Source of the DNA: a virus
IMG/VR virus record: IMGVR_UViG_3300043313_000605
Coordinates: 1-64,000 of that record
DNA length: 64,000 nucleotides
Direction: 5' to 3' (one strand)
Positions 5,314 through 63,838 of the stretch are shown here, piece after piece. Below the pieces are notes generated by a model, which saw nothing but the letters and a program-made list of their open reading frames with translations, was not told the DNA's origin and made no database searches. Both the position numbers and the translations under genes were made by a program. The stretch's first letter is position 1; each line of letters starts with the position of its first letter.

Positions 5314-5351
5314 GAAAAACCTCTCAGTAAACGGTCAGTGAACGTGAACGA

Positions 5352-5783: not shown

Positions 5784-5799
5784 TCAGTGAACTCCCTGC

Positions 5800-5822
5800 G
5801 CTGGCGCACAACGTGCGCCAGC
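5800..5822 (-). repeat. Intergenic hairpin upstream of GTTCACTG
   Basis: Perfect 10-bp arms GCTGGCGCAC / GTGCGCCAGC around a three-base loop, in the 51-base gap between the secreted beta-helix gene and the coil/zinc gene. GTTCACTG follows 7 nt downstream on the minus strand. The arm sequence GCTGGCGC is shared with the hairpin family at 61.1-63.8 kb. There is no U-tract, so it is not a classic intrinsic terminator. Confidence 0.75.
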
Positions 5823-5834
5823 GCCAGTGAAAGG

Positions 5835-11694: not shown

Positions 11695-11743
11695 ATCAGT
11701 TGTCCCCCTTGTCAGTGAATTGGTCCTACAGTGAACGCCAAGA

Positions 11744-16138: not shown

Positions 16139-16213
16139 TGCTCTCTCCATGATCGTTGGCAGTTGCGGCGCAGGGCAGACGCGACGCGCCGTTGAAACAG
16201 TGAACGGGTCCGG

Positions 16214-16886: not shown

Positions 16887-16911
16887 GGGGCGCACAACCG
16901 TTGTGCGCCCC
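16887..16911. repeat. Perfect 25-bp palindrome centred on CAACCGTTG
   Basis: 12-bp arms GGGGCGCACAAC / GTTGTGCGCCCC around a single central base, filling most of the 54-bp gap between the 17168 and 16865 genes. As RNA it would be a tight hairpin with no U-tract. As DNA it is an extended version of the dispersed CAAC(N)GTTG motif and a likely protein-binding site. Confidence 0.8.
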
Positions 16912-19718: not shown

Positions 19719-19747
19719 GTGATCCCTCCTCAACAGTGAACGTGAAA

Positions 19748-19778
19748 CGTGCAGGGCACAACGGTTGTGCCCTGCACG
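19748..19778. repeat. Perfect 31-bp palindrome centred on CAACGGTTG
   Basis: 15-bp arms CGTGCAGGGCACAAC / GTTGTGCCCTGCACG around one base, in the gap between the 19787 stop and the 19718 start. On the minus strand GTTCACTG follows 6 nt later, the same layout as the GCGCCAGC hairpins near 61-64 kb. It joins both repeat systems of this genome at one locus. Confidence 0.85.
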
Positions 19779-20365: not shown

Positions 20366-20441
20366 ATTCTCTCCAATGTGGCGGTAAACGCAGTACGCGC
20401 CTTGCGGCCTCCAACGCACTGCCCTTCAGTGAACGCTCTGC

Positions 20442-20470: not shown

Positions 20471-20695
20471 CGCTCCGAGACCAGCATATTCCAGATATAG
20501 TAGGAACGTTGTCGCGCCGAGTTTCTTTGTTGGAAATGGCAAGCCAGTCATGTCTTGCACGCGCACTACGACGTCTTCCATGTACCGTCGCTTCGGCTCT
20601 GGCCGACTCCAATTGAGCCGCGCCATCTTCCGCACGACCGCCTGAAACGTCTTCCCCTCGAAGATCAGGCCGTCACTTGTGGTGAACATGATCAT
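20453..20695 (-). CDS. Small conserved-type phage protein
   Basis: An 80-residue protein (MIMFTTSDGLIFEGK start). The layout of FxGxTFQAVVRKMARLNW followed by RYMEDVVVRVQ resembles a small protein found in diverse siphoviruses with no assigned function. The start overlaps the amidoligase stop as ATGA. That coupling makes it a candidate accessory protein of the amidoligase cassette. Confidence 0.55.
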   Translation of the reverse strand: MIMFTTSDGLIFEGKTFQAVVRKMARLNWSRPEPKRRYMEDVVVRVQDMTGLPFPTKKLGATTFLLYLEYAGLGALRVTD

Positions 20696-21786
20696 CGCAC
20701 TCTCCCGCGCGCTGCGCGCCGGTTCGCGCGCAGCAACTCTATACGCTGCTGCTCGACAGCGGTGACCGTCTGATCTTGCGTAATCACGAGCGGATTCACC
20801 TGACCGCGCAACCGTTGTGCTGCCGCTGACGGCATCCGCGACGCTGGCGCATGTGCCAGCGTCCGGATGCGCGCCAACGGGTCCAGATCGAGCCGTCTGC
20901 TCTCCAACTCCGGATTCCACGCGATGCGCCGATTCTCGATCCACTGCATCAGATCGCGCGTGACCGGATGCGCGTGCGGCTCACGCAGGCCGAGCACCGC
21001 GCCCACGTACTCCGTGTCGATCGCCCGCATGCGCTGGCGCGGCACGTACGGCTCCAGCGCCACGTTCGTCTTCGCACGCTCAACGAGCGACAGCATGAGC
21101 ATCGCCCATTCGCGCATCTCCTGATAGCTGATCGTGCCGTGGTGCAAGCGAACCTCGATCCGGCCAGAGTGCCACCACGGGCGCAGGTTGAGTGCGATGC
21201 GCGGCCAATTGTCCGGGTTGGCGTGATCGCGCGCGCCCGTGATCATCCGATGGACGTTGGTCCAATGAAAACTCGGCTGCCCATCCAACTCGTACGTACA
21301 GAGCGGCGCGCAGTACGAGCGCGCGCGCCGGTACGGCGGCACGAGCGAAAACCAGAACGGCTCGTAGCGCGCCCAGAGCCACACGAGATTCTGCACCTGC
21401 GCCCACGAGAGATCGCGCGTCTCGATATGCATGTGCAGGCCGCACGAGTTGTTCACCACCGGATCGAGCGCCGCGAAGTGATGGCAGACGCGCTCTAGCT
21501 CCTCGTTCTGTCCTTCCGCATTCAGTTGCAGCGCACGGCTCGCGACTTCCCAGCCGGACGTCGCATCCGTCTTGACGTCCCATGTATTGCCGTCGCTCTT
21601 GTACCACCCAACCTCACGCGGGTTGAGATAGCGCGCTGGCGCCCCGACGTCAGACAGCGCGTTCGCAACCGCCGTTTTGAGCGAGCGCGCTTGCAGCGCC
21701 CTGCGGTTCCGCCGCTGCTTGTTGATCTCGATCTCGATCCCGATGTTCCGGCCCATCCACGGCGCGTACAGACGATTAGTAGGCAT
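20692..21786 (-). CDS. Putative amidoligase (COOH-NH2 ligase, glutamine-synthetase fold)
   Basis: A 364-residue protein matching the Amidoligase_2 family. It has GIEIE at 16-20, a WDVKTDATSGWE segment at 69-80, CGLHMHIE at 115-122 and EVRLHHGT at 211-218. These correspond to the metal/ATP and substrate residues of this glutamine-synthetase-like fold. The family is predicted to make amide (peptide-like) bonds on peptides, proteins or small molecules. The start at 21786 overlaps the amidotransferase gene by 11 bases and has TTCACTGGATATGC before it. The next genes upstream are a class II glutamine amidotransferase and a gamma-glutamylcyclotransferase. The target in infection is unknown. Confidence 0.85.
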   Translation of the reverse strand: MPTNRLYAPWMGRNIGIEIEINKQRRNRRALQARSLKTAVANALSDVGAPARYLNPREVGWYKSDGNTWDVKTDATSGWEVASRALQLNAEGQNEELERVCHHFAALDPVVNNSCGLHMHIETRDLSWAQVQNLVWLWARYEPFWFSLVPPYRRARSYCAPLCTYELDGQPSFHWTNVHRMITGARDHANPDNWPRIALNLRPWWHSGRIEVRLHHGTISYQEMREWAMLMLSLVERAKTNVALEPYVPRQRMRAIDTEYVGAVLGLREPHAHPVTRDLMQWIENRRIAWNPELESRRLDLDPLARIRTLAHAPASRMPSAAAQRLRGQVNPLVITQDQTVTAVEQQRIELLRANRRAARGRVR

Positions 21787-22798
21787 GCATATCCAGTGAA
21801 AGTTGTTCCTCGACCGCACGCAACTTCTGGTCAACGATGATCTTTTGCAACGTCTGGACGCGAGCCTCTAGCTTCTCAATGCGGTCCTGAAGGTCGCGCA
21901 GTGAGATCAACTTCGCCGGCTCATCCGACTCCCTCGTATACGGGCGCATCTGGTCCATCGAATACGACTCACGCGATGACGAGCCAGTCCACCGCTCCGC
22001 ATCTCCGCGCGAGATCGCGAGCGTGCCCCACGACCGATCCGCCTCCAGCGTCTTCTGCGCCGGCTGGCCCTGCGCGAAGCGCGCCATGTTGATGCGCAGC
22101 GCGCGGTCAGCCGGTAGCTCACGAATCGTGTAGTCCTTTGGCTTGAACCCGTGGCGCTTCAACACCCGCACGATGTTGGTGCCTAGTGAATTCCAGACGA
22201 GCATCTTCATGTTCGGAATCCACGCGTACGCGAGCACACCCTGCTGCGAGCGCGCCAGATACAGATGCTCGCCCTTCGTCCATGAGAGTGCGAAGTACCC
22301 CTCAACCTGCTCCAGCGCCGCAAGCGGGTCTTCGTTGACGTCGAGCAGCGCGAACACCGCTTCTGAGTCCACCTTCCACTTCAGCTTCTGCGCAGCCACC
22401 AGCTTGTCCTTCACCAACCGTTGTTCGACTTTCTTCCAGTTGCTGATGATCCCATTGTGGCACCCAACGACGTTGCCGATCTGGAATGGGTGCGCGCAGT
22501 CGTCACGCGACGCGTTGTCGTGCGACGCACGGCGCGTGTGCAACTGGATCGCGACCGTGGACGCGTCGATCTCCTGATCGAGAATCTTCTGCCACGGCTC
22601 GCTCGCGCGCACGACGGACGCCTTGGATGCCGTCTTCCAGACGAACGGGTTGTCGAACGCATCGATGTGCGTGATCGCGATGCCGGTCGCATGGGAGCCA
22701 CGATCCTCGATCGTGCCCACCAGTTGATCCGTCATCTCGCGCGCCAACTCCAGCGAGTTGCCGTCAGCCTGCCTGAGAATACCTGCCAGTCCGCACAT
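21776..22798 (-). CDS. Class II glutamine amidotransferase (Ntn-hydrolase) domain protein
   Basis: A 340-residue protein starting MCGLAG, so Cys2 becomes the N-terminal nucleophile after Met removal. RGSHATG (33-39), HTRRASH (87-93) and GCHNGIISN (112-120) are the glutaminase motifs of the GlmS/PurF-type class II domain. No SIS, PRTase or synthetase domain follows. Instead the C-terminus is a coiled coil (LRDLQDRIEKLEARVQTLQ). It may release ammonia from glutamine or hydrolyse gamma-glutamyl bonds for the adjacent amidoligase. It overlaps the GGCT gene as TAATG. Confidence 0.88.
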   Translation of the reverse strand: MCGLAGILRQADGNSLELAREMTDQLVGTIEDRGSHATGIAITHIDAFDNPFVWKTASKASVVRASEPWQKILDQEIDASTVAIQLHTRRASHDNASRDDCAHPFQIGNVVGCHNGIISNWKKVEQRLVKDKLVAAQKLKWKVDSEAVFALLDVNEDPLAALEQVEGYFALSWTKGEHLYLARSQQGVLAYAWIPNMKMLVWNSLGTNIVRVLKRHGFKPKDYTIRELPADRALRINMARFAQGQPAQKTLEADRSWGTLAISRGDAERWTGSSSRESYSMDQMRPYTRESDEPAKLISLRDLQDRIEKLEARVQTLQKIIVDQKLRAVEEQLSLDMHAY

Positions 22799-23229
22799 TA
22801 TCGTGATGCCCTCGGAAATGCCGCACGCGACCAGAACGTCCCGATCGGTGTCGCCCGCGACTCCTCGATCGTCTCGATCGTCGCCACGTAGATGTACGCA
22901 TCGACGCGCTCGCCGTTCTCCAGATACGCCTCCGTCAACTCACGACGATAGAGCCCGCGCGACACGCCTTCGTACATGTCGAGCAACTCCAGCATGCGCG
23001 TTGGATTATCCAACTCGACGACTTCACCCTGCACGATCTTTCGGTCTTCGGTCAGTGTGTCGTCAGTGAACGCCATCGGATAGGCGCGATGCTCTGGCAG
23101 GTACAGCGTGTAGCCATAGACGACCGCAGGAATGTGCGGACCAACCTCGCCCCACGCCATTAGCGGTGATCTAGGCTCGTCGCCATACGTCTTCAATGTT
23201 CCGTACACGAACAGATGCTTGGTGGACAT
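22798..23229 (-). CDS. Gamma-glutamylcyclotransferase (AIG2/GGCT-like)
   Basis: A 143-residue protein with VYGTLK at 8-13, the nucleotide-loop-like signature of the GGCT fold, and LDMYEG with YRRELTEAYLENG downstream, typical of the family. GGCTs cyclise gamma-glutamyl amines to 5-oxoproline and a free amine. It is the first gene of the amidoligase cassette, with GTTCACTGAGGGGG before the ATG and a promoter at 23255-23283. It may edit or remove gamma-glutamyl linkages made by the amidoligase. Confidence 0.88.
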   Translation of the reverse strand: MSTKHLFVYGTLKTYGDEPRSPLMAWGEVGPHIPAVVYGYTLYLPEHRAYPMAFTDDTLTEDRKIVQGEVVELDNPTRMLELLDMYEGVSRGLYRRELTEAYLENGERVDAYIYVATIETIEESRATPIGTFWSRAAFPRASR

Positions 23230-23254
23230 CGTACCCCCTCAGTGAACGTGATTC

Positions 23255-27173: not shown

Positions 27174-27218
27174 GTCTCCTCCAGTGGACTGTCCGTTCAG
27201 TGAACTGCTGATGACCTA

Positions 27219-27425: not shown

Positions 27426-27458
27426 CGTTATGGGACATCCCGTTCACTGGAGGAAAAA

Positions 27459-27992
27459 ATGCCTGAGATCAGTAAGAAAGAGCCACGCATTTCACCTAAA
27501 GCGTTTGCTGATATCACAGACGCTATCTTCGCGAAGGGCAATCACTTCACTGGCGTCTCGATTGCCGCGCACATGGGCCAGAAGCAGTATCAGCTTTGGA
27601 CTGCGGTAAAATCGCGGGGCTTGACGGCCGGCGAGGCTCGCATGTTCTCCGACGCGCTCGATCAATGGTCCATCGAGTTGATGAACATGGCGAGAAAGAT
27701 GAGGCGGCTTGCTACCGAACTGGAGGGTGGGACTCTCCCGCCCATGCTCCCGCTCGCTGAAGCGCGGCGCGCGGCGCGGCCTCATGTGTATGCTGCGGCA
27801 GACGGACCCATCCTGAGCGCTCCGGATTACGCGGATCACGGACTACCGGCAGAGGAGCGCGCAGCCGAGCGCGCCAGCGCCGAGCCCGAGACCGAATCCG
27901 CGCAGGACGACGAGCCGGTTGCGTCTCCGCTCGACATCGAGCCGGCGCGCGCCGACGTCGATGAGCCCGTGCAGCGTAGCCGCTTCGCCTGA
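27459..27992 (+). CDS. Putative regulator; only plus-strand gene
   Basis: A 177-residue protein with CACTGGAGGAAAAA immediately before its ATG. The N-terminal ~95 residues are helical. GVSIAAHMGQKQYQLWTAVKSRG near residue 32 could be a helix-turn-helix. The C-terminal third is acidic and disordered. Transcription opposite to every other gene and adjacency to the operators suggest a regulator, by analogy to phage switch proteins. No repressor family is recognised, and its 3' end overlaps the spanin-like gene antisense by 150 bp. Confidence 0.65.
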   Translation: MPEISKKEPRISPKAFADITDAIFAKGNHFTGVSIAAHMGQKQYQLWTAVKSRGLTAGEARMFSDALDQWSIELMNMARKMRRLATELEGGTLPPMLPLAEARRAARPHVYAAADGPILSAPDYADHGLPAEERAAERASAEPETESAQDDEPVASPLDIEPARADVDEPVQRSRFA

Positions 27993-42311: not shown

Positions 42312-43195
42312 TAGGCGAACGGCTGGATGGCGATTTCGTACGTCGTTTCAATCAACCCACTCTCAACCACGACTTGCGCCGTATCGGCGGACCCGAGCGA
42401 ACTGATATTCTTGACATTCCAGACGTTCGGCATCCCGGTCGGATAGACTTCGATTTGGTCGCCGGGGAACGGCGTGCAGATGATGTCCGCGTCTGGAATC
42501 AGCGTGCCGGACGCATCCTTCACTTCGATGACGATCCCTCGGACGTCGCCGATCGCCAGCACATTGTCGTACGACTCGTCGTGCGGATAGACGTCGATCG
42601 AATCCGGCACCATCGGCTGCACCGCGCCACCTGTCGTAATGCCGGCAATGTCTTCCTCGACTTCGATCGTCAGCACAACGGTTGCGAGCAGATTGCTCGA
42701 ATCGTCGCCCCCGATCTGCGGATCGACGTAGCCGGTCACAAGCGGCAGCACGAACACGCCAGCCGGCCAGTCGTTCTCGACTGGGGTGAGCAGCGTGATC
42801 GTGTCGCCGAGTATCGAGTCGATGACAATGCGTTCCGTGCCGATCGACTCGTGGTACAGCATTGCATCGACGAGAAACTTGCGCGGCGCGACCGGCGCAT
42901 CGACCACAACGGTTGTGTCGGTGGCTATTAGCGGCACGTTCAGCATCATCGCGTCTTCCCATCGCGGGAAGGCGATCCGCATATCCTTCGTGGTGTGCAG
43001 CAATCGCTTCAACTGCGCAGCTTCGTCCTGACTCGACGTCGTGATCGTATAGACCAGCGTCTCCCGTGGCTTCGACCGCAGGCGACGGCGCTGTTCCGCG
43101 CCGTTCCGCATGGGAATGATGTCCGTCTTCCACGACAGCTTGCGGGCGACGTTCGATTCCCAGTTATGCTCTAGCACGAATGCGGGCGCCGTCAT
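42311..43195 (-). CDS. Distal tail protein
   Basis: A 294-residue protein beginning MTAPAFVLEHNWESNV. Its N-terminal part (RNGAEQRRRLRSKPRE) shares the layout of the following gene, suggesting related folds. It lies immediately after the tape measure gene with an ATGA overlap, the usual place for the distal tail (Dit-like) component. Confidence 0.65.
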   Translation of the reverse strand: MTAPAFVLEHNWESNVARKLSWKTDIIPMRNGAEQRRRLRSKPRETLVYTITTSSQDEAAQLKRLLHTTKDMRIAFPRWEDAMMLNVPLIATDTTVVVDAPVAPRKFLVDAMLYHESIGTERIVIDSILGDTITLLTPVENDWPAGVFVLPLVTGYVDPQIGGDDSSNLLATVVLTIEVEEDIAGITTGGAVQPMVPDSIDVYPHDESYDNVLAIGDVRGIVIEVKDASGTLIPDADIICTPFPGDQIEVYPTGMPNVWNVKNISSLGSADTAQVVVESGLIETTYEIAIQPFA

Positions 43196-46100
43196 CCGAT
43201 GATCCCCTTCGCGCTACGACGGTTGCGGCGCAGGTTCCGCATTGTGACAGCGGCGCCGGGGTCGGACTGCTGCACCTTCAGGATGTGCGAATCGTTCGAC
43301 TGCACGTCGAGCATCACGCGCACCGCCTGCGGAGTCGCGCTGGCCCCGCTGCCGCGCGCGAGCGCCGCGACCGACGCGTCCACCGCCCCGCCATCGGCAT
43401 ACCGTGACATCGTTGGCGACGACACATTCGGCACCGTGAACGACGGCATCACGACCGCCTGATCCGTCGTCGTGAACGCCATCGATCGGCGCGGACCAGA
43501 CAGCCCCTGCCCACCATTCAAGCCAGCGCCGAACGCCGCCGCCCCGCCCATCTGGATCGGTTGGCCGATGCCGCGCGAGAAGCTGTTGATCTGGTTGACG
43601 AGTCCTTCGGCACCACTCGCGCCGTTGGCGAGCGCCGCGCGCGCGAGCGCCGCCGCCGCCGCCGAGAGCGCCGCCGCTGCCCCAGAGAGCGCGGTCGCGG
43701 ACGGCACCATCGACGCGCCGAGCGCGGAACTGGCCGTCAGCAGAGCGGCCCCAGCCGCCTGAAGGCCCGTTGCCGCCGCCAATTCAGCAGCCTCGACCGC
43801 ACCATCGCCCGCCACAGCCCCGATCTCCCGCACGGTGGCGTTCCCGATCGCGTCCCCGGCCGCTGCGCCGCCCAGCGTGGCGCTAAGGGCCGGCAGCATG
43901 CCCTGCAAGGTAGCCATCGACGCCGCAAACGTGCTTGCCGCCTGCACGTTCGTGGTAGCAGCGGCCACCTGCTCTTTCGCCGCCGTCTGCTGGAGCACCG
44001 CCGACGACATGTCGCCGCCGATGTTGATACCGATCTTCGCGAGCGCACCCCGCGCCATCCGGGTCAGGTTCTGAGCGAACTCCTGCGCCAACTGTTGTTG
44101 GAGCGCCCGGAGGATCGAGAGCGAGACGTCCTTCGCGAAGTCGATCAGGCTGTACAGCCGCTCTTTCGTCTTCTCCACCATCTTGCCGGTGTTCTCGTCG
44201 AAGTAGCGTACCGTCTCCTCGATGTGCGTCCCGATGTTGCCGAACGCCTCGGCCACGCCGGACTGGAATCCATTCAGCCCGATCTCGACGTAGCGCGCGA
44301 GATCGCTGACCGCCAACCGTTGTGCTTCGACCAGATTCCCCAACTCGACTTCAAGCTGACGCACCGACTCGATCGCTTCGTCGTTCTTCGACGCTTCCGC
44401 GAACGCGCGCATCGCCGGCAGCGCGCGCTCGATCGCCGCGATCTGCGCATCGTACGCCGCACCGACCGCGCGCGCCTGCTCGGCGGTCGTGATCATACCA
44501 CGCGCCGCCAATGCATTGATCTCGCCGATCCGATTCTGCGCCTGCGACGACGCGCGGCTGATGACGCGGTTCAGGTCTTCCAGCTTCGCGCGCGCGACTT
44601 CGACGTTGATGAAATCGTCGAGCCCGAGCGTGGGCACCTTGTTGATCTCCATCACGCGGCGCAGCTTTTGGAACTGCTGCTCCAGTTCGATGCGACGCGC
44701 CTCGCCGGTCTGCTCGTCCTGCCGCAGCCGCGCGAGACTCAGTTGCGCCAATTCGTCATTCAGCGACTTCTCCAGATCGGTCAGCTTACGCTTCGCGTCT
44801 TGCGCGAGCCCGATCCGACGATTCACGAGATCGTTGATGTCCTGCTGAATCTTGGCTCGCTCGCCGACGTCTTCCGTATGCGCGAGCAGTTCACGCCGCA
44901 GCTTGATCTCCGCGTTGACGGCATCCCGCTCTGCGCGAAGTAGCGTGGTGACGTAATCGGCAAAGCTGATCTCCTGATGATCCAGTTCCTCGTCGAGCGC
45001 ATCCTTCGCGCGCTTGAACGCGTTGCGCACCTGCTCGATCGCCGCCTCGATCATCTGGCGGAAATCATTCGACTTTTTCGGCTCCTTGTCTTCTGGATCA
45101 GGAACGATTTTCGTTGGCTTTAGCTTGGCCGTTTCCTTGTTCAGATTGTTCATGGCGCCCAAGATGGCCGTCACGCGATTTTCTGCGTCGTCCAATGTTG
45201 GCGTCAGCCGCTCGATCGACTCGCGCGCCTGCTTCGCCTGATCTTGGAACTTGTCGGCCAGTGTATTGTCCCCAGCCGCGCGCGCGCGATCCGACGCCGC
45301 CTCGTTCGCGTTCGCAAGATCGCGTTCCAGATCAAGTTGCGACTTGATCGTGTCGGCGTTGGCGCGAGCGCTCTCGAATTGCGTCACCAGTAGATTTTCC
45401 TGCGCGATCTGCAACTGCTTCACGGCTTGGGCCGTTTCCTTCGCGCCAGCCCCCCACTTGGACAGTTGCTCGGTGTATTGCGGTGCGATCTGGATGATCT
45501 GCGCAACGATCGTCTTCAGCTTTTCCTGCGCTTCTGCGAGTCCAGCCCCGGACAGCTTTCCCGAGTCGATCTTTTTCTTCAGCAGCTCGTACTCGACAGT
45601 CAGCTTCGCGACCTCCGTTGCGTTATCGCGCGCCTTCTCATCCGCCAGTTCCAGACTACGCTGCGCCTTCTCGGCCGCGACGTCCACCGTGCCGAGTGCC
45701 TCGCCGAGCATGCTCAGGCCACCAGAAATCACGCGGAACCCGATGCCGACCGGCGTCCACTTCAGGAACGTCGTGATTTTGTCCAGCCCTTCCTGAAACT
45801 CGTGAGACTGGAACTGCTTGATCGTCCACCCCAGCGTATCGGCAGTCAACTGCATCAGCTTCGCGATCGACCGCAGTAGCTTCTCCCACGTTCCCGTCTC
45901 GGCCGCAACGCCGAGCGTCTTCGCGATGATCTCGACCGTGACGCCGAGTACGCGACCCATCTGCGTCGCCAGTTCCTTCGCGCCGGCAATCACGCCGTCG
46001 ATCGACGCACGGTTCTCCTCGAAGTAGCGAGACAGTTGCGCCGCAGCGCCAAACGCGTTGCGGATCGCCTTCGTCATCAGTGATCCGATCGAGCCAAAGA

Positions 46101-47805
46101 TGTCCTGCGCGATTTTGACGATGCCCTGAAACTTGTCGGCGATCTTCGCATTCGGAATGTCGAAGAATCCGACGAGTGCCGCGTTGCCCTCACGCCGCAG
46201 CGCATCGAACAGCGGCTTCGTGGCCGCGCCCGCGAAGACGTCGAAGCCTTCCTTCAGGTTCGACAGGAGCACGGTCATGTTCTGCATCGAGCGTTCGCCC
46301 GCGAGCGAGAATTGGCTGAACCGCTGGATCAGTCGCTCCGCGAACACGCCCTGCTGCTTCCACGACGAGATCAATTCATTCGAGATACCGAGCGTCTTGG
46401 CAATACGCGTGTTGTACGTGACCGTGCCGGCGAGCAACGACCGCACTTCCTCGTTCAACTGGTGCATCGGGAGCCCGATCGCGGACGCGGCCTGCGTCAC
46501 GCCGATCGTGAATTTCCGAATCTCGTCGAGATTGAGCCCGCTCCGAAGACCGGGACCGACCGCTTGCTGGAACGCCGTGACCAACTGCTCGGTCGTCGCG
46601 GCGGTCGCCAAGCCGGCGACACGCAACTGCGTCACCTGCTCCTCGCTCACGGCCATCGCGGCATCGAGCGCCTTCGATCCTTCCAGCAGCCGGTTCTGCG
46701 AATCGTACAGCTTCGCCTGCGCCGTGATCAGCGTCGCGATACCGAGCGTCGCCTGATTGACCGTCTCGTTGAACTGGAAGCCGGCGCGAATGAACGCCAT
46801 GAACTGCCGCGCACCCGTGATCGCCGTGCCCAACTGAATGAGCCGGCGCACGAGCAGATGCGTCGCGGTGGCACTCGTGTGCGTGCGAACCGCGTTCTCG
46901 CGAAGCGCCGTGTTGTGCTGGCGCATCGCAGCACCAGCACGCGACGCCGCGTTGATTTGAGCAACCTGCGCACGCGACGCCGCGTTGATTTGAGCAACCT
47001 GCACCGCCGCTGCCGCATGCTGCGCTGCCGCCGCGCGATTCGACGCGGCAATCTGGGCGGCAGCCAGCCGGGATGCGGCAGCCGTCGCACGATTGGTTGC
47101 CTGCGTCTGCTGATTGAGCGCCGCAACCGTTGCGCGCGTGCCCGCGAGCGCCGCCTGCGTCTGCTGCGCCATCGCGCGCGCCTGCTGGGCATTGCCCTGC
47201 AATGCCGCCTGCGTCGCCTGCTGCTGCGTTCTCGCCGCCTGCGACGCCGATGCGATATTCGCGCGAATCTGGGCCTGCTGCTGGTTCGCCTGCTGACGAC
47301 CGGCTTCGACCATCGCCTGTGTCTGCGCGTGCATCGCACGTACCTGATCGGCCGTGCCCTTAATGATGCTGGCCGTTCGCTGCTGCTGCGCGCGCGCGGA
47401 TGCGGATGCGGCCTGTACCTGCGCCTGCGTCTGCTGCTGCAACGCGCGCGTCTGCTCCGCAATCGCCTGTCGCTGTGACCGCGCGCCCTCGATCGCCGCC
47501 TGCGTCGCCTGCTGCTGCGCGCGCGTGTGCTCGCGCGCCGCCATGCTCGCCTCGTGCTGCGCCGTGACCAGCGCCTTCATGGCAGTCATCTGCGCGCGGA
47601 TCGACGCGACGTAGCGCTGGATCGACGCCTGACTCTTGGCGTACGTCGCGGCAATCTTTTCGGCTTCCGACCGATCGCGTGCCGCCGCCGCCGCGTTTTG
47701 CTTCGACGACTCCGTGAGTTGCTTCAGTGCTTCGGCGACTGCCTGAAGCAGCGCCTTCGCACCGGCATCCTTCGCACTAATTTTTAGACTGATATCGTCT
47801 GGCAT
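43192..47805 (-). CDS. Tape measure protein
   Basis: A 1,537-residue protein. Residues ~80-280 are Ala/Gln-rich coil with repeated RAQQQA/TQAA units. The centre has hydrophobic helices (GVIAGAKELATQMG) and long coils. The C-terminal third has Ala-rich hydrophobic stretches that can enter the host membrane. Length and location after the tail chaperone identify it. At about 1.5 angstroms per residue it would set a tail near 230 nm, which supports a siphovirus. No lysozyme or peptidase domain is evident. Confidence 0.9.
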   Translation of the reverse strand: MPDDISLKISAKDAGAKALLQAVAEALKQLTESSKQNAAAAARDRSEAEKIAATYAKSQASIQRYVASIRAQMTAMKALVTAQHEASMAAREHTRAQQQATQAAIEGARSQRQAIAEQTRALQQQTQAQVQAASASARAQQQRTASIIKGTADQVRAMHAQTQAMVEAGRQQANQQQAQIRANIASASQAARTQQQATQAALQGNAQQARAMAQQTQAALAGTRATVAALNQQTQATNRATAAASRLAAAQIAASNRAAAAQHAAAAVQVAQINAASRAQVAQINAASRAGAAMRQHNTALRENAVRTHTSATATHLLVRRLIQLGTAITGARQFMAFIRAGFQFNETVNQATLGIATLITAQAKLYDSQNRLLEGSKALDAAMAVSEEQVTQLRVAGLATAATTEQLVTAFQQAVGPGLRSGLNLDEIRKFTIGVTQAASAIGLPMHQLNEEVRSLLAGTVTYNTRIAKTLGISNELISSWKQQGVFAERLIQRFSQFSLAGERSMQNMTVLLSNLKEGFDVFAGAATKPLFDALRREGNAALVGFFDIPNAKIADKFQGIVKIAQDIFGSIGSLMTKAIRNAFGAAAQLSRYFEENRASIDGVIAGAKELATQMGRVLGVTVEIIAKTLGVAAETGTWEKLLRSIAKLMQLTADTLGWTIKQFQSHEFQEGLDKITTFLKWTPVGIGFRVISGGLSMLGEALGTVDVAAEKAQRSLELADEKARDNATEVAKLTVEYELLKKKIDSGKLSGAGLAEAQEKLKTIVAQIIQIAPQYTEQLSKWGAGAKETAQAVKQLQIAQENLLVTQFESARANADTIKSQLDLERDLANANEAASDRARAAGDNTLADKFQDQAKQARESIERLTPTLDDAENRVTAILGAMNNLNKETAKLKPTKIVPDPEDKEPKKSNDFRQMIEAAIEQVRNAFKRAKDALDEELDHQEISFADYVTTLLRAERDAVNAEIKLRRELLAHTEDVGERAKIQQDINDLVNRRIGLAQDAKRKLTDLEKSLNDELAQLSLARLRQDEQTGEARRIELEQQFQKLRRVMEINKVPTLGLDDFINVEVARAKLEDLNRVISRASSQAQNRIGEINALAARGMITTAEQARAVGAAYDAQIAAIERALPAMRAFAEASKNDEAIESVRQLEVELGNLVEAQRLAVSDLARYVEIGLNGFQSGVAEAFGNIGTHIEETVRYFDENTGKMVEKTKERLYSLIDFAKDVSLSILRALQQQLAQEFAQNLTRMARGALAKIGINIGGDMSSAVLQQTAAKEQVAAATTNVQAASTFAASMATLQGMLPALSATLGGAAAGDAIGNATVREIGAVAGDGAVEAAELAAATGLQAAGAALLTASSALGASMVPSATALSGAAAALSAAAAALARAALANGASGAEGLVNQINSFSRGIGQPIQMGGAAAFGAGLNGGQGLSGPRRSMAFTTTDQAVVMPSFTVPNVSSPTMSRYADGGAVDASVAALARGSGASATPQAVRVMLDVQSNDSHILKVQQSDPGAAVTMRNLRRNRRSAKGIIG

Positions 47806-47807
47806 GG

Positions 47808-48254
47808 TCAGTCCTTCAGGATGTCAGGTTTCTTTGGCGGGTTCTTGCCACCGTGGAAACTGTAACGAAGCAACGCTTGCTCGTACGACTTTGCCGCTTC
47901 GGCCTTCATCAGATGCACGAACGCCAGCAGCATCTCGCGCATCGGCCAATCCAGCACGATCTCTAGTCGCTCGTAGTCGTATCCGGCGACTTCTCTGGCG
48001 ATGATGTTGTAGTCACGACAGTCGAGCCAGCCTCGTGCAACGCTTTGAGCACGTCGCTTGGCACGGGCACGTTTGACGCGTTCGGAGAGGATGAAGCCGG
48101 TAACGGGGTCGCGCTCGATGTCGGTTCGCTTGACCCCTCGGGACTCGCCTCGCTTCCCTGCTCCGAAAAGTTCAGGGAAGTCAGCGTGGACGCGAGCCCT
48201 GAAGCGAAATACAGGACGAGGATCGAAGCCAACGGCCCATGCAGCGCGGCCTTG
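47808..48254 (-). CDS. Tail assembly chaperone -1 frame extension (GT-type)
   Basis: A 149-codon frame, -1 relative to the upstream chaperone, without an early ATG, GTG or TTG. It ends five bases before the tape measure ATG. The encoded protein is coherent (ERDPVTGFILSERVK, GYDYERLEIVLDWPMREM, EAAKSYEQALLRYSF). This is the arrangement of lambda G/GT and most siphoviruses: a -1 ribosomal slip makes the longer chaperone. Candidate slip points are the GGGG at 48134-48137 or the CCCC at 48105-48108. A textbook X-XXY-YYZ heptamer was not found. Confidence 0.65.
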   Translation of the reverse strand, partial: QGRAAWAVGFDPRPVFRFRARVHADFPELFGAGKRGESRGVKRTDIERDPVTGFILSERVKRARAKRRAQSVARGWLDCRDYNIIAREVAGYDYERLEIVLDWPMREMLLAFVHLMKAEAAKSYEQALLRYSFHGGKNPPKKPDILKD

Positions 48255-48601
48255 TCATTCTTGTTCGTTAGCTCACCAAAATACTCGGCGTTCGCCAATG
48301 CGTTCTCGCGCGTCCACTTCTTCCCGTCTTCGACGAGAATGCCGGCGAGAATTTCGTAGAGCGTGCCGTTCTCGTAGGCCGCTTCGACGCACTTCTGCGC
48401 CAGCACATCCAGCTTGTCTGGCGTGTTGTATGTCGCGGCAATCACTTCAAGGCCAGCCTGATCGAGTCGCGTCATCACCCACATATCCTGCCGCGATGAC
48501 GTCGCCTCGGTGATCTTGAACTTCCGGCCATCCGAGAACGTGATCAGCGTTTCCTTGTCGAAATCGATCTCGTCCCGCTTCTCTTGCGTTGGTGCGGTCA
48601 T
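47963..48601 (-). CDS. Tail assembly chaperone, short (G-type) form
   Basis: A 212-residue protein encoded directly before the tape measure gene. A mixed alpha/beta N-terminal domain (DEIDFDKETLITFSDG) is followed by a Ser/Thr/Pro-rich tail ending TTTSD. GAGGAGCGC precedes the ATG. It should coat the tape measure during tail assembly. Its 3' part overlaps the -1 extension by 292 bases. The low-complexity tail is where slippage probably occurs. Confidence 0.75.
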   Translation of the reverse strand: MTAPTQEKRDEIDFDKETLITFSDGRKFKITEATSSRQDMWVMTRLDQAGLEVIAATYNTPDKLDVLAQKCVEAAYENGTLYEILAGILVEDGKKWTRENALANAEYFGELTNKNDKAALHGPLASILVLYFASGLASTLTSLNFSEQGSEASPEGSSEPTSSATPLPASSSPNASNVPVPSDVLKALHEAGSTVVTTTSSPEKSPDTTTSD

Positions 48602-48627
48602 GCGCTCCTCGCTGGTGAGAAAGACGA

Positions 48628-48657
48628 CGGGGCGACAGCTTTCACGCCGCCGCCCCG
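48628..48657 (-). terminator. Stem-loop after tail tube gene
   Basis: Seven-bp arms CGGGGCG / CGCCCCG in the gap between tail tube and chaperone genes. The downstream minus-strand sequence TCTTTCTC is only weakly U-rich, so it is a partial terminator or mRNA stabiliser rather than a strong terminator. Confidence 0.35.
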
Positions 48658-48684
48658 CGTCTGACCAACGTAACGCCCGTGCGG

Positions 48685-49479
48685 TTAGGCCGGGAGATAC
48701 GTGACCTGATACAACTGGTTGCCGGGGTGACCGACCGGATCGGCCAGCACGCCGCCGACGAGTCCGAGATCAGCGAACTCCTCGGAGATGAGACCGAGCG
48801 CTCCGTCCGGCGTGAACGACGCCTTCCAGATTTCGACCATCATCTTCGGGCCGGCAGACGGATCGCCCACGAACAGGAGCGAGCCTTCGATCGTGTTCTG
48901 CGTGCCACCCTTGACGCGCTGCACCGCACCAGCGGTGTACGCGGTCGGCGTGTAGCCAACCGTGAGCGTTGACCCATCGACGATGGTTGCGCTGACCCCA
49001 TCGAAGATGTGAATGATGCCGGCGATCGGATCGACGATCTCGTAATCCGTGCCGAGCACACCAACGCTCGGGACGATCGGTGCGGTGTACGGTCCCAGCT
49101 TCGAGACCTTGTAGTACGCCCCACGCACGACACTCGTGGTGAGCACTTCACCCACGACCGCCGTTGCCGGCTGTGCGTAGGTCTCGTCCACTTCGCCTTG
49201 CGTGATCAGCGCAAGGTTGTACGGGTGGAACTCCGACAGCGTGAGTCGGACCGTCACGTTCCGGCGACGGGTGATCTTTTTGTACAGTGGTGCGTCCTTC
49301 GTCATGCTGCTGAACTTCTGGATGATATCGTCTTCGGTCGTGATCTCCATTGCATCGACGTTCCCGAGATGCTGAAGACCTGTGCCGTTACCGGCGTTGT
49401 CGAAGCGATTGATCCAGACACTACCCTTACCGACGATGAGGTTGTCGGCATCGGGCGCGGCAGCCCACGTCTGCGCCAT
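48685..49479 (-). CDS. Major tail tube protein
   Basis: A 264-residue protein (MAQTWAAAPDADNL start). Beta-strand-rich with VDPIAGIIHIFDG in the second half and an Ala/Thr-rich linker, typical of long siphovirus tail tube proteins. AGAGGATTCACAGAC precedes the ATG. It forms the stacked hexameric rings whose number is set by the tape measure. Confidence 0.75.
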   Translation of the reverse strand: MAQTWAAAPDADNLIVGKGSVWINRFDNAGNGTGLQHLGNVDAMEITTEDDIIQKFSSMTKDAPLYKKITRRRNVTVRLTLSEFHPYNLALITQGEVDETYAQPATAVVGEVLTTSVVRGAYYKVSKLGPYTAPIVPSVGVLGTDYEIVDPIAGIIHIFDGVSATIVDGSTLTVGYTPTAYTAGAVQRVKGGTQNTIEGSLLFVGDPSAGPKMMVEIWKASFTPDGALGLISEEFADLGLVGGVLADPVGHPGNQLYQVTYLPA

Positions 49480-60202: not shown

Positions 60203-60247
60203 AAAAAAAAATGGGGGTGGGGTACCCGATAGGCCGGTACCCCACCC
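60203..60247 (-). terminator. Strong intrinsic terminator ending the early right-end unit
   Basis: Perfect 12-bp arms GGGTGGGGTACC / GGTACCCCACCC with a 9-nt loop. On the minus strand this is followed by CCA and nine consecutive T residues. It separates the small early genes from the terminase operon. Confidence 0.9.
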
Positions 60248-60509: not shown

Positions 60510-60770
60510 TCACGCAACCGCGCGGGTGACAGTGAACGTCAGTGCATCCCGCTGAGATACCACAAGCGCATGAGTGCTTTCCTTACTGTGAGTCTCGACC
60601 ACACGCCGCAACTGGGCGGCTGTGTCGCTGTCGTCTGTCTCGACCACGATAGCACTGCGCGACCAGTACACACGAGCACCACGAGCGCGCAGGATACGAC
60701 CGATGTAAGCCAGCAATCCGGTATTTTCGATTGTCAACGGCCGAACCGGCTGTAGCAAATCAGTGAACAT
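60510..60770 (-). CDS. Hypothetical early protein
   Basis: An 86-residue protein (MFTDLLQPVRPLTIENT start). Pattern of strands and helices (RVYWSRSAIVVETDDSD) suggests a small alpha/beta fold. CACTGGGGGCAACG precedes the ATG. No family recognised. Confidence 0.6.
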   Translation of the reverse strand: MFTDLLQPVRPLTIENTGLLAYIGRILRARGARVYWSRSAIVVETDDSDTAAQLRRVVETHSKESTHALVVSQRDALTFTVTRAVA

Positions 60771-60826
60771 CGTTGCCCCCAGTGAAAACGTGTCAGATAC
60801 CAACCCTATAGATGTGACTAGGGTGG

Positions 60827-60961: not shown

Positions 60962-61100
60962 AACGGCACCCTCCCAGCACATGTGAACGCACCACGACAT
61001 ACACCACGAGACCAGAGAGCACGAGCACCAGCGAGCACGAGCCGACGAACGCAGCAACCACGGTTCCACACACGGAATGCACCAGCGCGCGGTTTGACAC
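60873..61100 (-). CDS. Small membrane protein (start uncertain)
   Basis: A 75-residue frame beginning at GTG 61100 after GTTCACTGAGG. A hydrophobic segment (VVAAFVGSCSLVLVLSGLVVYVVV) is followed by a basic C-terminus that overlaps the 32-residue peptide gene. The N-terminal half is more credible than the C-terminal part. TTG 61109 is an alternative start. Confidence 0.4.
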   Translation of the reverse strand: MSNRALVHSVCGTVVAAFVGSCSLVLVLSGLVVYVVVRSHVLGGCRYVIRALVSSGVRGRMHGRYDLSGVRHARR

Positions 61101-61129
61101 AGTGAACAAGCCTCAGTGAACGTGAGATC

Positions 61130-61155
61130 GAGCGCCAGCCGATGTGCTGGCGCTC
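61130..61155 (-). repeat. GCGCCAGC hairpin 1
   Basis: Arms GAGCGCCAGC / GCTGGCGCTC around a CGATGT loop, 8 nt upstream of GTTCACTG on the minus strand. It lies between the 61163 gene and the 61100 start. Member of a seven-copy family. No U-tract follows. Confidence 0.85.
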
Positions 61156-61162
61156 TATCCGT

Positions 61163-61417
61163 CTATGCGTGTGCGATGTGCTCGGCGATGTGCGCTGGCG
61201 CGCCCGACACAGGTCCGTCATACAGCACCCGATGCACTCCGGCACCGTGGTGCGGTCTCAGGGAAACCGTTGCCATGTCCACCCCGTCACGGTCCCAGAG
61301 TCGCACCACAACGGCACCCTCCCAACTTGCCGCCATCGTCCGCAGTCCGCTTGCTTTCGTGCCGAGCCGCGTCACTTCGCCACGGCTCCCCCGCAATTCC
61401 CCGTAGAAATGCGCCAT
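61163..61417 (-). CDS. Conserved-type phage hypothetical protein
   Basis: An 84-residue protein starting MAHFYGELRGSRGEVTRLG, a start shared by a widespread family of small phage early proteins (GExxGxRGExTRxGxKxSGxR) with no known function. The rest is a beta-barrel-like segment (GAVVVRLWDRDGVDMATV). GAGGG precedes the ATG. A hairpin at 61447-61471 lies upstream. Confidence 0.7.
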   Translation of the reverse strand: MAHFYGELRGSRGEVTRLGTKASGLRTMAASWEGAVVVRLWDRDGVDMATVSLRPHHGAGVHRVLYDGPVSGAPAHIAEHIAHA

Positions 61418-61446
61418 AGAGCAAACCCTCGATGATGCGCGCCGAA

Positions 61447-61471
61447 TCGCTCTAGGACGATCCTAGAGCGA
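61447..61471 (-). repeat. Hairpin of unrelated sequence
   Basis: Perfect 11-bp arms TCGCTCTAGGA / TCCTAGAGCGA around CGA, in the gap upstream of the 61417 gene. It has the position of the GCGCCAGC hairpins but a different sequence, suggesting that structure, not sequence, is what is kept. No U-tract. Confidence 0.75.
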
Positions 61472-61494
61472 ATGGCGCACGGTTTAGAACACCC

Positions 61495-61716
61495 TCACGA
61501 GCCGCGCACCCGATCGAGCGCGGCGCGCTCTAACTCGACGTCATCCTCCCGTTCCTGCTCGGCCGCGTCACCGAGTCCAGTCGCGCCAACGATGGCGACC
61601 GCATAGACCAGCACCGCCGCAATCCGGAACCCGTTGAACACGAGCACCGAACCAACTGCAAACCCAACCAACGCCAGAAAGGCAAACGCGTTCGTGCCAT
61701 GCCGTGACAGTGCCAT
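61495..61716 (-). CDS. Two-helix small membrane protein
   Basis: A 73-residue protein (MALSRHGTNAFAFLALVGF start) with two hydrophobic helices (residues ~8-24 and 30-50) and an acidic tail (EREDDVELERAALDRV). CACTGAGGAAACGGTCA precedes the ATG. Function unknown. Confidence 0.65.
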   Translation of the reverse strand: MALSRHGTNAFAFLALVGFAVGSVLVFNGFRIAAVLVYAVAIVGATGLGDAAEQEREDDVELERAALDRVRGS

Positions 61717-61744
61717 TGACCGTTTCCTCAGTGAACGTGAAACC

Positions 61745-61772
61745 AGCGCGCCAGCCGATGTGCTGGCGCGCT
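61745..61772 (-). repeat. GCGCCAGC hairpin 2
   Basis: Arms AGCGCGCCAGC / GCTGGCGCGCT around CGATGT, 8 nt upstream of GTTCACTG and the 61716 start. It begins nine bases after the 61781 stop on the minus strand. Confidence 0.85.
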
Positions 61773-61780
61773 GTCGTGCG

Positions 61781-62083
61781 TCAGTCCGCGTCCGCCATTT
61801 CCGTAGCGCGCTGCTCGTAATCGGCAACCGTGGCGCGTTCGTGCTCGGCGTTCAATTCCGCAGCCGCATCGTCCGCAGCCGTGGACACGTTCTCGACCAG
61901 CGCATAGCACCACGCGGCAACGATTCCGCCGATTTCATAGTGTCCGGCCAGCACCAGTAACACAGTGATACCGGCGGCGGTCACGTAATGGTGCGGATGC
62001 GACACGAGCACCCGAATGTGGCGCCGTCGCACGGCTCTAGCCCACACCGCAAGTGCGTACGGCGCTCGGATCAGTTTCGCCAT
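61781..62083 (-). CDS. Membrane protein with acidic helical tail
   Basis: A 100-residue protein. A basic N-terminus (RAVRRRHIRVLVSHPHH) is followed by two hydrophobic stretches (ITVLLVLAGHYEIGGIVAAWCYALV) and an acidic coil (AAAELNAEHERATVADYE). A strong GGAGGAAT precedes the ATG. Resembles the adjacent 73-residue membrane protein in layout. Confidence 0.65.
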   Translation of the reverse strand: MAKLIRAPYALAVWARAVRRRHIRVLVSHPHHYVTAAGITVLLVLAGHYEIGGIVAAWCYALVENVSTAADDAAAELNAEHERATVADYEQRATEMADAD

Positions 62084-62114
62084 ATTCCTCCTGCGTTACC
62101 TGTGAATGGAGAAA

Positions 62115-62138
62115 CGCGCCAGCCGATGTGCTGGCGCG
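62115..62138 (-). repeat. GCGCCAGC hairpin 3
   Basis: Arms CGCGCCAGC / GCTGGCGCG around CGATGT, between the 62148 stop and the 62083 start. Here the following sequence is ATTCACAGG, a diverged GTTCACTG, with a separate GGAGG ribosome site. Confidence 0.8.
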
Positions 62139-62147
62139 CTGCACTGC

Positions 62148-62504
62148 TTACGACAGTTTCCACACGCCGGGCGACACCCGCACCACGAGCCGCGCGCGCT
62201 GCAACGCCAGCAACGCACCGTGGACAATGGACTCAGTGTCCACCTGTCCGCCCACCTGTGCGGCGATGTGGTCGGCGATGGTATCCTCGTGCGACTGGCC
62301 GTTGCGCGTCAGGTACGTCATAACGCGTTTCTGGTTCGGATCGGTGACGCGTATTTTCGCTGCACCCGTTGTGCGGGTGGCAGTCTTCCGGACCGTGCGA
62401 CGGCGCGCCGTGCGCCCGTCATCGTCACTGCGCACAGGGCGCGTAAACCGCGCCTGTTGCACATGGTCCAAAATGTCACCATCAAAAGCGAGATCATCAA
62501 ACAT
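62148..62504 (-). CDS. Winged-helix-like early protein
   Basis: A 118-residue protein. The first ~50 residues are acidic then basic and disordered (DDDGRTARRRTVRKTATR). The C-terminal 65 residues (QKRVMTYLTRNGQSHEDTIADHIAA through VVRVSPGVWKLS) read as a winged helix, so DNA binding and early regulation are plausible. CACTGAGGAACACGCGCC precedes the ATG. Confidence 0.6.
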   Translation of the reverse strand: MFDDLAFDGDILDHVQQARFTRPVRSDDDGRTARRRTVRKTATRTTGAAKIRVTDPNQKRVMTYLTRNGQSHEDTIADHIAAQVGGQVDTESIVHGALLALQRARLVVRVSPGVWKLS

Positions 62505-62533
62505 GGCGCGTGTTCCTCAGTGAACGTGAGATC

Positions 62534-62559
62534 GAGCGCCAGCACATCGGCTGGCGCTC
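62534..62559 (-). repeat. GCGCCAGC hairpin 4 (inverted loop)
   Basis: Same arms GAGCGCCAGC / GCTGGCGCTC, but the loop is ACATCG, the reverse complement of the loop in the other copies, so this element is present in the opposite orientation. GTTCACTG occurs on both flanks in the minus orientation. Confidence 0.85.
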
Positions 62560-62570
62560 ACAGTGAACGA

Positions 62571-63050
62571 CTACCGCGCTGGCGCGCGGTTGCTCGGATG
62601 GTTGCCGCCGTAGCGCTCTTGCTCGGCGCGATACTGCCACCATCCCTCCGGAGCACGCCAGACCGCCGTCAGTTCGGCCGCGCCACCGTGAAAACCGATG
62701 GTTGCGGTGACGCCCGAGCATCGGCCGGGGAGCATGGCGGCAATGTCACGCACGGCGCGAATGGCGATTTGTTCGCACGACGGGAAATGTCCAACCGTCG
62801 TAAACTGCTCGGTGAAGTACCGGCGAACGTCTTGCCAGTCGATCAAAAAGCCTTGGTCATCCAACGATGCGGGGGCGCCAGTCACGGTGACAGTGTAGTC
62901 CAGTTGTCGCGTGACTCCTTTGGGTCCGCATCGGTCGTGTGCGTCGTGCTCGTGCTCGACGTGAAAACTACCTTTCGTTGTCATCGTGACTGCCTGTGCG
63001 TCAGCAACCGGCATCGTTGCCAGCACTGGCGCGGTATTCGGAATGTGCAT
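62571..63050 (-). CDS. Hypothetical early protein, possibly T-fold (PTPS/QueD-like)
   Basis: A 159-residue protein. LDYTVTVTGAP, GFLIDWQDVRRYF and FPSCEQIAIRAVRDI line up in order and spacing with the strands and the substrate-glutamate region of 6-pyruvoyl-tetrahydropterin synthase / QueD. The expected HGH zinc ligands are not clear, with only an HVEHEHDAHD cluster near residue 30. It may be a degenerate or specialised T-fold enzyme. QueD-like phage proteins otherwise serve 7-deazaguanine DNA modification, but no partner enzymes are visible in this window. Confidence 0.4.
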   Translation of the reverse strand: MHIPNTAPVLATMPVADAQAVTMTTKGSFHVEHEHDAHDRCGPKGVTRQLDYTVTVTGAPASLDDQGFLIDWQDVRRYFTEQFTTVGHFPSCEQIAIRAVRDIAAMLPGRCSGVTATIGFHGGAAELTAVWRAPEGWWQYRAEQERYGGNHPSNRAPAR

Positions 63051-63080
63051 TCCGATTTCCCTCAGTGAACGTGAACAGCA

Positions 63081-63108
63081 AGCGCGCCAGCCGATGTGCT
63101 GGCGCGCT
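63081..63108 (-). repeat. GCGCCAGC hairpin 5
   Basis: Arms AGCGCGCCAGC / GCTGGCGCGCT around CGATGT. It follows the 63118 stop and stands 10 nt upstream of GTTCACTG and the 63050 start. Confidence 0.85.
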
Positions 63109-63117
63109 GTGTCGTGC

Positions 63118-63291
63118 TCAATCGTGAATCAGTCCAGCGCGCAACATCTCAGCGGCGAGCCGCCCGTAACTGCCTTGCAAGTGCCACACGGCGCCCGAGT
63201 CCATGAGCGCTTGCATAGCCTCTACTTTTTCATCGTCTGACGTTGGCCCGTCGATTTCCTCGACGATGGCGACCGCTTCAAAGTCCGTCAT
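63118..63291 (-). CDS. Small conserved-type phage protein (WHLQG motif)
   Basis: A 57-residue protein, start MTDFEAVAIVEEIDG. The stretch MQALMDSGAVWHLQGSYGRLAAEML is a pattern found in a very common small phage protein (WQxLIDTGxxWxLQGxxGRxA). No function is known. The start overlaps the upstream stop as ATGA. Confidence 0.75.
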   Translation of the reverse strand: MTDFEAVAIVEEIDGPTSDDEKVEAMQALMDSGAVWHLQGSYGRLAAEMLRAGLIHD

Positions 63292-63446
63292 ACGAGAGAC
63301 CGCGCCAGTCGCCAGTTGTCACGAGCCGCCCACACGTTGACGAGCATTTCGCCACGGTTGCCGGTCTCGCGATAGTATCGAGCGGCCGCAAGCTGGACAC
63401 GCGCCCGAGCGCGCAGGTTCGCAGCATTCCTTTCCTGTTCCGCCAT
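63288..63446 (-). CDS. Small helical protein
   Basis: A 52-residue protein (MAEQERNAANLRARA start; WAARDNWRLARSLV end), basic and helical. Its start is the second ATG after GTTCACTGAGGAAATGCCAA, at proper ribosome-site spacing, and its stop forms ATGA with the next gene. A frame from the first ATG yields an unlikely Cys/Arg-rich peptide. Confidence 0.65.
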   Translation of the reverse strand: MAEQERNAANLRARARVQLAAARYYRETGNRGEMLVNVWAARDNWRLARSLV

Positions 63447-63474
63447 TTGGCATTTCCTCAGTGAACGTGAGATC

Positions 63475-63500
63475 GAGCGCCAGCCGATGTGCTGGCGCTC
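63475..63500 (-). repeat. GCGCCAGC hairpin 6
   Basis: Arms GAGCGCCAGC / GCTGGCGCTC around CGATGT, 8 nt upstream of GTTCACTGAGG and the 63446 gene. Confidence 0.85.
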
Positions 63501-63512
63501 TGTGGTGCGCTG

Positions 63513-63770
63513 CTACTTGTCCGACGACGGCGGGAGCCACGTAGACGCGGGAGCCGACATTGCCGCGTCCAGCGCGGCGCCGTGAATCGCTCCGTAGGTG
63601 TTCCGTGCGATCTCGTCCACCCGACGTTGAATCGCTTCCTGATTGGCGACGATGGTTGCCTGATTCATGAGCGACTGACGCACGAGCGACGCGATTTCTT
63701 TCTGTGCGTCGCGAATGGCGTGCTGATTCCCGATGATGGTTGCCTGATTGGCAATGAGTGCAGTGAACAT
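63513..63770 (-). CDS. Coiled-coil protein with NQATI repeats
   Basis: An 85-residue protein. NQATIIGNQHAI near residue 8 and NQATIVANQEAI near 36 are copies of one unit within a helical coil. The tail is Pro/Ser-rich (SAPASTWLPPSSDK). Oligomeric coiled coil likely; function unknown. GAGGTACACACAAC precedes the ATG. Confidence 0.65.
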   Translation of the reverse strand: MFTALIANQATIIGNQHAIRDAQKEIASLVRQSLMNQATIVANQEAIQRRVDEIARNTYGAIHGAALDAAMSAPASTWLPPSSDK

Positions 63771-63800
63771 GTTGTGTGTACCTCAGTGAACGTGAGACAA

Positions 63801-63826
63801 GAGCGCCAGCCGAATTGCTGGCGCTC
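63801..63826 (-). repeat. GCGCCAGC hairpin 7 (variant loop)
   Basis: Same arms GAGCGCCAGC / GCTGGCGCTC with a CGAATT loop, two substitutions from the family loop. It lies 9 nt upstream of GTTCACTGAGG and the 63770 gene. Confidence 0.85.
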
Positions 63827-63838
63827 TGTGGTGCGTGG

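Follow-up and report, generated by a model that had tools for sequence, protein, structure and literature searches.

A repeated leader word follows either a sigma70-like promoter or a hairpin at gene starts of a virus from IMG/VR, a possible RNA-level leader system

We analysed a window of 64,000 nucleotides, out of the 64,128 bases of IMG/VR record IMGVR_UViG_3300043313_000605 (G+C ~61%), in which a run of small genes on the minus strand carries near-identical hairpins in its gaps, together with a short word, GTTCACTG, close to the start codons. Profile searches of the minus-strand genes identified a RecE-like exonuclease, a primase, a helicase, a ParB-like protein, an amidoligase, tail and head proteins, and a terminase. 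A DNA search returned no similar isolate phage, and the top primase matches (~35% identity) are from Bacillus and Microbacterium phages. The first-pass annotation, made from the letters alone, called the small-gene run "early", a label that the sequence does not establish; the run sits upstream of the terminase.

The hairpin pattern GCGCCAGC-N6-GCTGGCGC occurs in seven exact copies (at 61132, 61748, 62116, 62536, 63084, 63477, and 63803), and no other site in the window resembles it with better than 3 mismatches. The stems are perfect and 9–12 bp long, and the seven near-identical copies fill seven of the eight gaps of the run, which bears out the first-pass annotation. In gene order on the minus strand, they are h7 (63800–63827, 11-bp stem, loop variant AATTCG), h6 (63475–63500, 10-bp stem), h5 (63081–63108, 11-bp stem with a C-G variant of an A-U pair), h4 (62534–62559, loop inverted, flanks keeping their side), h3 (62113–62140, one G-U pair), h2 (61744–61773, 12-bp stem), and h1 (61130–61155, 10-bp stem). 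Read on the plus strand, the loop is CGATGT in five copies, its inverse ACATCG in the copy at 62536, and CGAATT in that at 63803. Cassette copies have up to 46 bp in common at 100% identity, and RNA folding of the seven family stems is stronger than that of shuffled sequences (z −2.2 to −4.3).

The gaps follow one order on the minus strand: a stop codon, 7–12 nt, the hairpin, 7–10 nt, GTTCACTGAGG, 12–13 nt, and ATG. They measure 64–68 bp, except for the gap before the gene at 61109, which is 53 bp long and has 4 nt between GTTCACTGAGG and a TTG start. GTTCACTG lies 8 nt behind h7 (63784–63791), h6 (63459–63466), h4 (62518–62525), and h1 (61114–61121), 10 nt behind h5 (63063–63070), and 7 nt behind h2 (61729–61736), all on the minus strand. 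The proposal that each hairpin is paired with the word is thus correct for six of the seven, but h3, the only family copy without GTTCACTG downstream, has ATTCACAG. An extra minus-strand copy lies between the upstream stop codon and h4 (62561–62568). All eight gaps of at least 50 bp between ~63,840 and 61,110 contain a hairpin; the eighth (61447–61471, minus strand, 11-bp stem) is unrelated in sequence. This one had been placed at the equivalent position, and it is a real hairpin in an equivalent gap, but without GTTCACTG.

The word also stands over start codons. On the minus strand, second copies cover the ATG of the gene behind h7 (63761–63768, within ATGTTCACTG) and the TTG of the gene behind h1 (61100–61107, within TTGTTCACTG), and another covers an ATG at 60761–60768, with TTTCACTG 12 nt before it (60780–60787). 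The genes at 63768, 61107, and 60768 thus start with the word itself (ATGTTCACTG or TTGTTCACTG), and their proteins begin M-F-T; two of the three have an exact copy of GTTCACTG upstream and the third a one-mismatch copy.

Beyond the run, two hairpins unrelated to the family share its arrangement on the minus strand. The palindrome that the first-pass annotation had placed in the equivalent position at 19748 is a 14-bp hairpin (19748–19778, containing CAACSGTTG) with GTTCACTG 6 nt downstream (19734–19741), and an additional 12-bp hairpin (5798–5824), absent from that annotation, has the word 5 nt downstream (5785–5792). There are 19 perfect hairpins with a stem of at least 9 bp in the genome, and eight of them have GTTCACTG 5–10 nt downstream, whereas random placement predicts 0.11 such pairs, and placement confined to intergenic DNA 1.5 (maximum 6).

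The genome contains 24 copies of GTTCACTG where 2.1 are expected; 23 are on the gene strand, and 16 of these 23 copies lie in intergenic DNA, which makes up 9% of the genome. A Chi-like recombination octamer is disfavoured by this concentration. Sixteen exact leader copies are clear of the start codon, and they divide evenly: eight are led by a hairpin (six in the array and those at 19748 and 5798), and eight by a sigma70-like promoter whose −10 element ends 7–16 nt before the word (site p 0.0001–0.036). None of the hairpin-led leaders has a promoter reaching p 0.05 in the same search, so hairpin and promoter never coincide at one leader copy. The genome's three best promoters on either strand each precede GTTCACTG, with 8–16 nt after the −10.

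The promoter-led copies on the minus strand are at 27198–27205 (13 nt after TTGACT-16-TATGAT, score rank 2 in the genome), 23240–23247 (7 nt after TTGTGG-17-TAGATT), 20427–20434 (7 nt after TTGCGC-17-TAAATT), 16198–16205 (8 nt after TTGACG-17-TACCAT), 11729–11736 (7 nt after TTGCGC-17-TACTAT), 5336–5343 (8 nt after TTGAAT-17-TATACT), and 2486–2493 (15 nt after TATATT, with a weak −35). The sole plus-strand copy (27442–27449) has its own promoter, TTGACA-18-TATTCT, 16 nt upstream, and precedes a plus-strand open reading frame (27459–27992). Taken together with the boundary role of the hairpins proposed below, GTTCACTG may be a start-associated element whose place in the 5′ leader is directly before the ribosome-binding site, a tentative reading that we place just short of probable.

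An exact search for the hairpin across IMG/VR hit no other record, and Rfam gave no match above the gathering score, only a single sub-threshold chance match. A search of IMG/VR with TCACGTTCACTGAGG returned 53 records, 52 of them with one match, while in the other (L211) a tandem coding repeat holds two; these were set aside, their contexts resembling coding sequence by eye.

Single-protein searches with the terminase, helicase, and amidotransferase found no relatives; the closest relative found, IMGVR_UViG_3300024520_000062 (hereafter G001), was retrieved by primase alignment. Its identity to this phage is 46% in the primase, 53% in the terminase, and 41% in the helicase, with equal gene order, and in each phage the small-gene array is situated between RecE and terminase, provided that the contig analysed here continues across its ends. 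Leader-word discovery in 80 relative loci gave only one clear word of this kind, in L012/G001, and repeated hairpins with a common stem word were found in none of the 80. The word of G001, GGTTACTG, a diverged counterpart with an equal role, has 16 copies, 15 of them on the gene strand. Six gene-strand copies stand behind promoters (mostly TTGACA-17-TAGGTT or TACCTT, p ≤ 0.0032), the lone opposite-strand copy stands behind the best-scoring promoter, and the array gaps at 46829 and 47054 have GGTTACTG with neither promoter nor hairpin. Within 42737–48694 of the G001 contig (loci L166 and L242), near-identical cassettes of TTGACA-17-TAGGTT and GGTTACTG are repeated before small genes. A second IMG/VR record with the motif (L222) is nearly identical to G001. 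Because the array of G001 has a promoter or nothing before its word, the word appears to be the constant part and the preceding element (promoter, hairpin, or nothing) the variable one.

These patterns suggest a mechanism in which GTTCACTG probably works at the mRNA level and a phage-specific factor probably recognises it; as a whole we hold this mechanism to be quite possible, if not quite probable. At promoter-led genes, the predicted transcript would carry the word within about its first 0–10 nt. No promoters lie inside the small-gene operon, where a strong RNA hairpin would take the promoter's place before the word. The hairpin may set an RNA boundary, either by directing cleavage or by protecting a new 5′ end, or it may insulate the leader by keeping the RNA of the preceding gene from folding onto it; each internal gene would then carry the same leader as the first gene. 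Processing, a protective 5′ structure, and insulation alone cannot be told apart from the sequence. The RNA-processing site proposed by the first-pass annotation is, in this broader putative form, the best of its three readings of the hairpins. Two facts lead us to infer a phage-specific reader: the two related phages have different words, and the complement of GTTCACTG is absent from 16S rRNA of Escherichia coli (as it is from 23S rRNA, where only 7-mers match). The same two facts argue against pairing with a conserved rRNA. A more specific version, possible but rather doubtful, is that the phage can begin a gene in two interchangeable ways, with a sigma70 promoter or with a hairpin that has no promoter. 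Either would place the same leader word directly behind the new 5′ boundary, so that one polycistronic RNA would become a set of uniform messages, each like that of a first gene, for a phage-specific translation or stability factor to read.

Whether the palindromes act as RNA or as DNA bears directly on this. At pair 6–29 of the family stem, four copies have A-U and three have C-G, all without mismatch; the stem covariation score of 0.153 exceeds the shuffled value of 0.076 (2 of 500 shuffles reach it, and all slid controls are lower). A DNA palindrome would also keep its symmetry, so only the single G-U pair that h3 keeps on the transcribed strand favours RNA. The unrelated stems at 19748 and 5798 carry GTTCACTG, which indicates that a structure recurs and not one stem sequence. 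In h4, the loop alone is inverted and the flanks match those of h1 and h6. This pattern is consistent with template switching, or with resolution of a cruciform, inside the palindrome, and it points to a loop whose orientation is of little importance. Several points weigh against the proposed mechanism. The covariation comes down to a single informative pair among seven related copies. Eight stem pairs do not vary at all across those copies, a degree of conservation beyond what pure structure would demand unless the cassettes are recent copies. Efficient cutting by RNase III generally calls for stems longer than these 9–12 bp. The hairpin and promoter classes of leader were set after the sites had been seen, 4 of 19 leaders without GTTCACTG also reach ≤0.036 under a more lenient promoter search, and the absence of such hairpins from G001 leaves the hairpin half of the system with one known phage.

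The main rival makes the palindromes DNA sites, at which a dimeric phage regulator would bind and either drive or block a start at GTTCACTG that does not use sigma70. The invariant stem pairs would suit it, as would the inverted loop, which is without consequence for a palindromic DNA site, and the palindrome centre lies 21–24 nt before the word in most copies, close to the 21.5–22.5 nt of the −35/−10 spacer centre at five promoter sites. One regulator would not, however, recognise the unrelated stems at 19748, 5798, and 61447, which occupy an equal position; the word is present in G001 leaders without promoter or palindrome, and the protein families searched yielded no regulator. The regulator-binding promoter class of the first-pass annotation is not favoured on similar grounds, since no sigma70 promoter overlaps the hairpins and the three unrelated stems recur, and we regard a DNA site as unlikely, though a serious contender. 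Transcription termination offers another role, the hairpins acting as intrinsic terminators or attenuators that lack a U-tract and give graded expression from gene to gene of the operon; their strong G+C-rich stems, 7–12 nt past stop codons, are in the usual terminator position. Yet none of the seven family hairpins is followed by a T run, so that of the two features of an intrinsic terminator, a G+C-rich stem and a U-tract, the second is absent, and no promoter lies behind each hairpin for transcription to restart. Gene-strand hairpins with a run of at least five T number exactly one per genome, at 60215 here (60215–60247, minus strand, with a T9 tract) and at 53510 in G001, and both are placed between the array and the terminase module. 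With a single U-tract terminator per genome, downstream of the array, the family hairpins are probably not ordinary terminators, as the first-pass annotation had concluded, and the array resembles a single transcription unit that ends in the usual way. We consider U-less termination quite unlikely.

The near-identical, repeated palindromes just past stop codons might also be stabilising 3′ hairpins of the upstream gene, like repetitive extragenic palindromes, with GTTCACTG an independent ribosome-binding feature. This is distinctly improbable, because eight perfect hairpins within 5–10 nt of the word, against 0.1–1.5 expected, show that the two elements are not independent. Least probable by far is that the cassettes serve mainly as short homologies for gene shuffling. 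The array proteins have no mutual similarity in an all-against-all comparison, the protein at 61163–61417 has relatives at 48–70% identity in four virus contigs that otherwise belong to different viruses, its gene having passed between unrelated phages, and the identical 46 bp would offer homology; shuffling is thus plausible as a consequence of the repeats. As the recombination point of the first-pass annotation, however, the hairpins lack any relative found with an exchange breaking at one of them, and the constant order of the parts and their link to start codons imply a role in gene expression. The gaps before the four relatives of 61163–61417 have neither hairpin nor word, so the cassette belongs to this phage and not to that gene.

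Several other features of the genome touch these subjects less closely. The palindrome CAACSGTTG has 30 sites between 2584 and 54432 (0.56 expected), 26 of them in coding DNA, and is absent from 54.5–64 kb. The hairpins at 19748 and 16887 are extended copies of it; the latter (16887–16911), an 11-bp hairpin without GTTCACTG, stands between a stop codon and a probable start at ~16868. The palindrome is also enriched in two other virus contigs (10 sites in G009 and 6 in G008) and not in G001 (3 sites) or an Arthrobacter genome. Genes for a gamma-glutamylcyclotransferase-like protein, a class II glutamine amidotransferase, and an amidoligase lie side by side at 20692–23229. The protein encoded at 15287–16138, between helicase and primase, belongs to no recognised family and has an acidic tail like that of single-stranded DNA-binding proteins (DDDIPW; DSDLPF in G001). 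Together with two further proteins of unknown family (at 10517 and 10128), it is common only to this phage and G001 in the loci searched, and no link of the three to GTTCACTG was found. The gene at 63513–63770 contains an internal 37-nt repeat (84% identity, spacing 84 nt).

The closest published parallels are the start-associated sequences (SAS) and extended SAS (ESAS) of cluster K mycobacteriophages, defined by Pope et al. (PMC3203893). As there, an inverted repeat and then a short conserved word precede starts in one orientation, in the larger gaps of non-structural genes, with a subset carrying the repeat (PMC3203893, PMC11373665), and the hairpins here lie in gaps >50 bp (53–68 bp) of non-structural genes, upstream of the terminase. 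The differences are in the details. The SAS is GGGATAGGAGCCC, a 13-bp sequence at the ribosome-binding position 3–7 bp from the start, whereas GTTCACTG is 12–15 nt from the start in most gaps. Cluster K ESAS are imperfect 17-bp repeats with little support for RNA pairing (Pope et al., PMC3203893), whereas the stems here are perfect, 9–12 bp, and show a two-sided change. ESAS copies of Adephagia contain a putative SigA promoter (PMC11373665), whereas no promoter at p <0.05 is present at any of the eight hairpins here. The resemblance to ESAS-SAS pairs drawn by the first-pass annotation therefore stands as an analogy but not as membership, the word being the SAS of neither cluster K nor cluster EF; judged from its sequence, the present case would function like start-associated repeat systems, yet it lacks three defining ESAS features.

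Other phage repeats share single traits. In the passages covered of a study of Microbacterium phages of clusters EC, EF, EG, and EI (PMC7302621), short motifs or inverted repeats lie 14–30 bp before starts, in EC upstream of the ribosome-binding sequence as here; they have other sequences, and none is described there as alternating with promoters. The 17-bp palindrome of cluster O (Corndog; PMC4351075) is near-invariant with a variable centre and no orientation, like the hairpin family, but occurs in genes as well as gaps, whereas the family is confined to gaps; the CAACSGTTG palindrome is the better parallel. Stoperators of clusters A and CA (PMC13313380) resemble GTTCACTG as ~25 asymmetric sites in one orientation in gaps, but they are 13–14 bp repressor sites, whereas GTTCACTG stands at or after promoters and next to starts; no repressor or lysogeny genes were recognised among the proteins scanned. 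The PeSL elements of T4-like phages, cited in PMC5931544, combine a regulatory signal and a stem-loop repeated between genes and are linked to shuffling; by the title of the paper on them they are promoter-terminator composites, whereas the hairpin gaps here are without promoter.

Actinobacteriophages have been known since 2011 to carry start-associated repeats, to which no function has been assigned. The present genome provides a natural comparison, with one word common to promoter-led and hairpin-led genes and a relative whose array uses promoters. Comparison with G001 separates the leader word from the element that precedes it, and a role at the RNA level would be directly testable.

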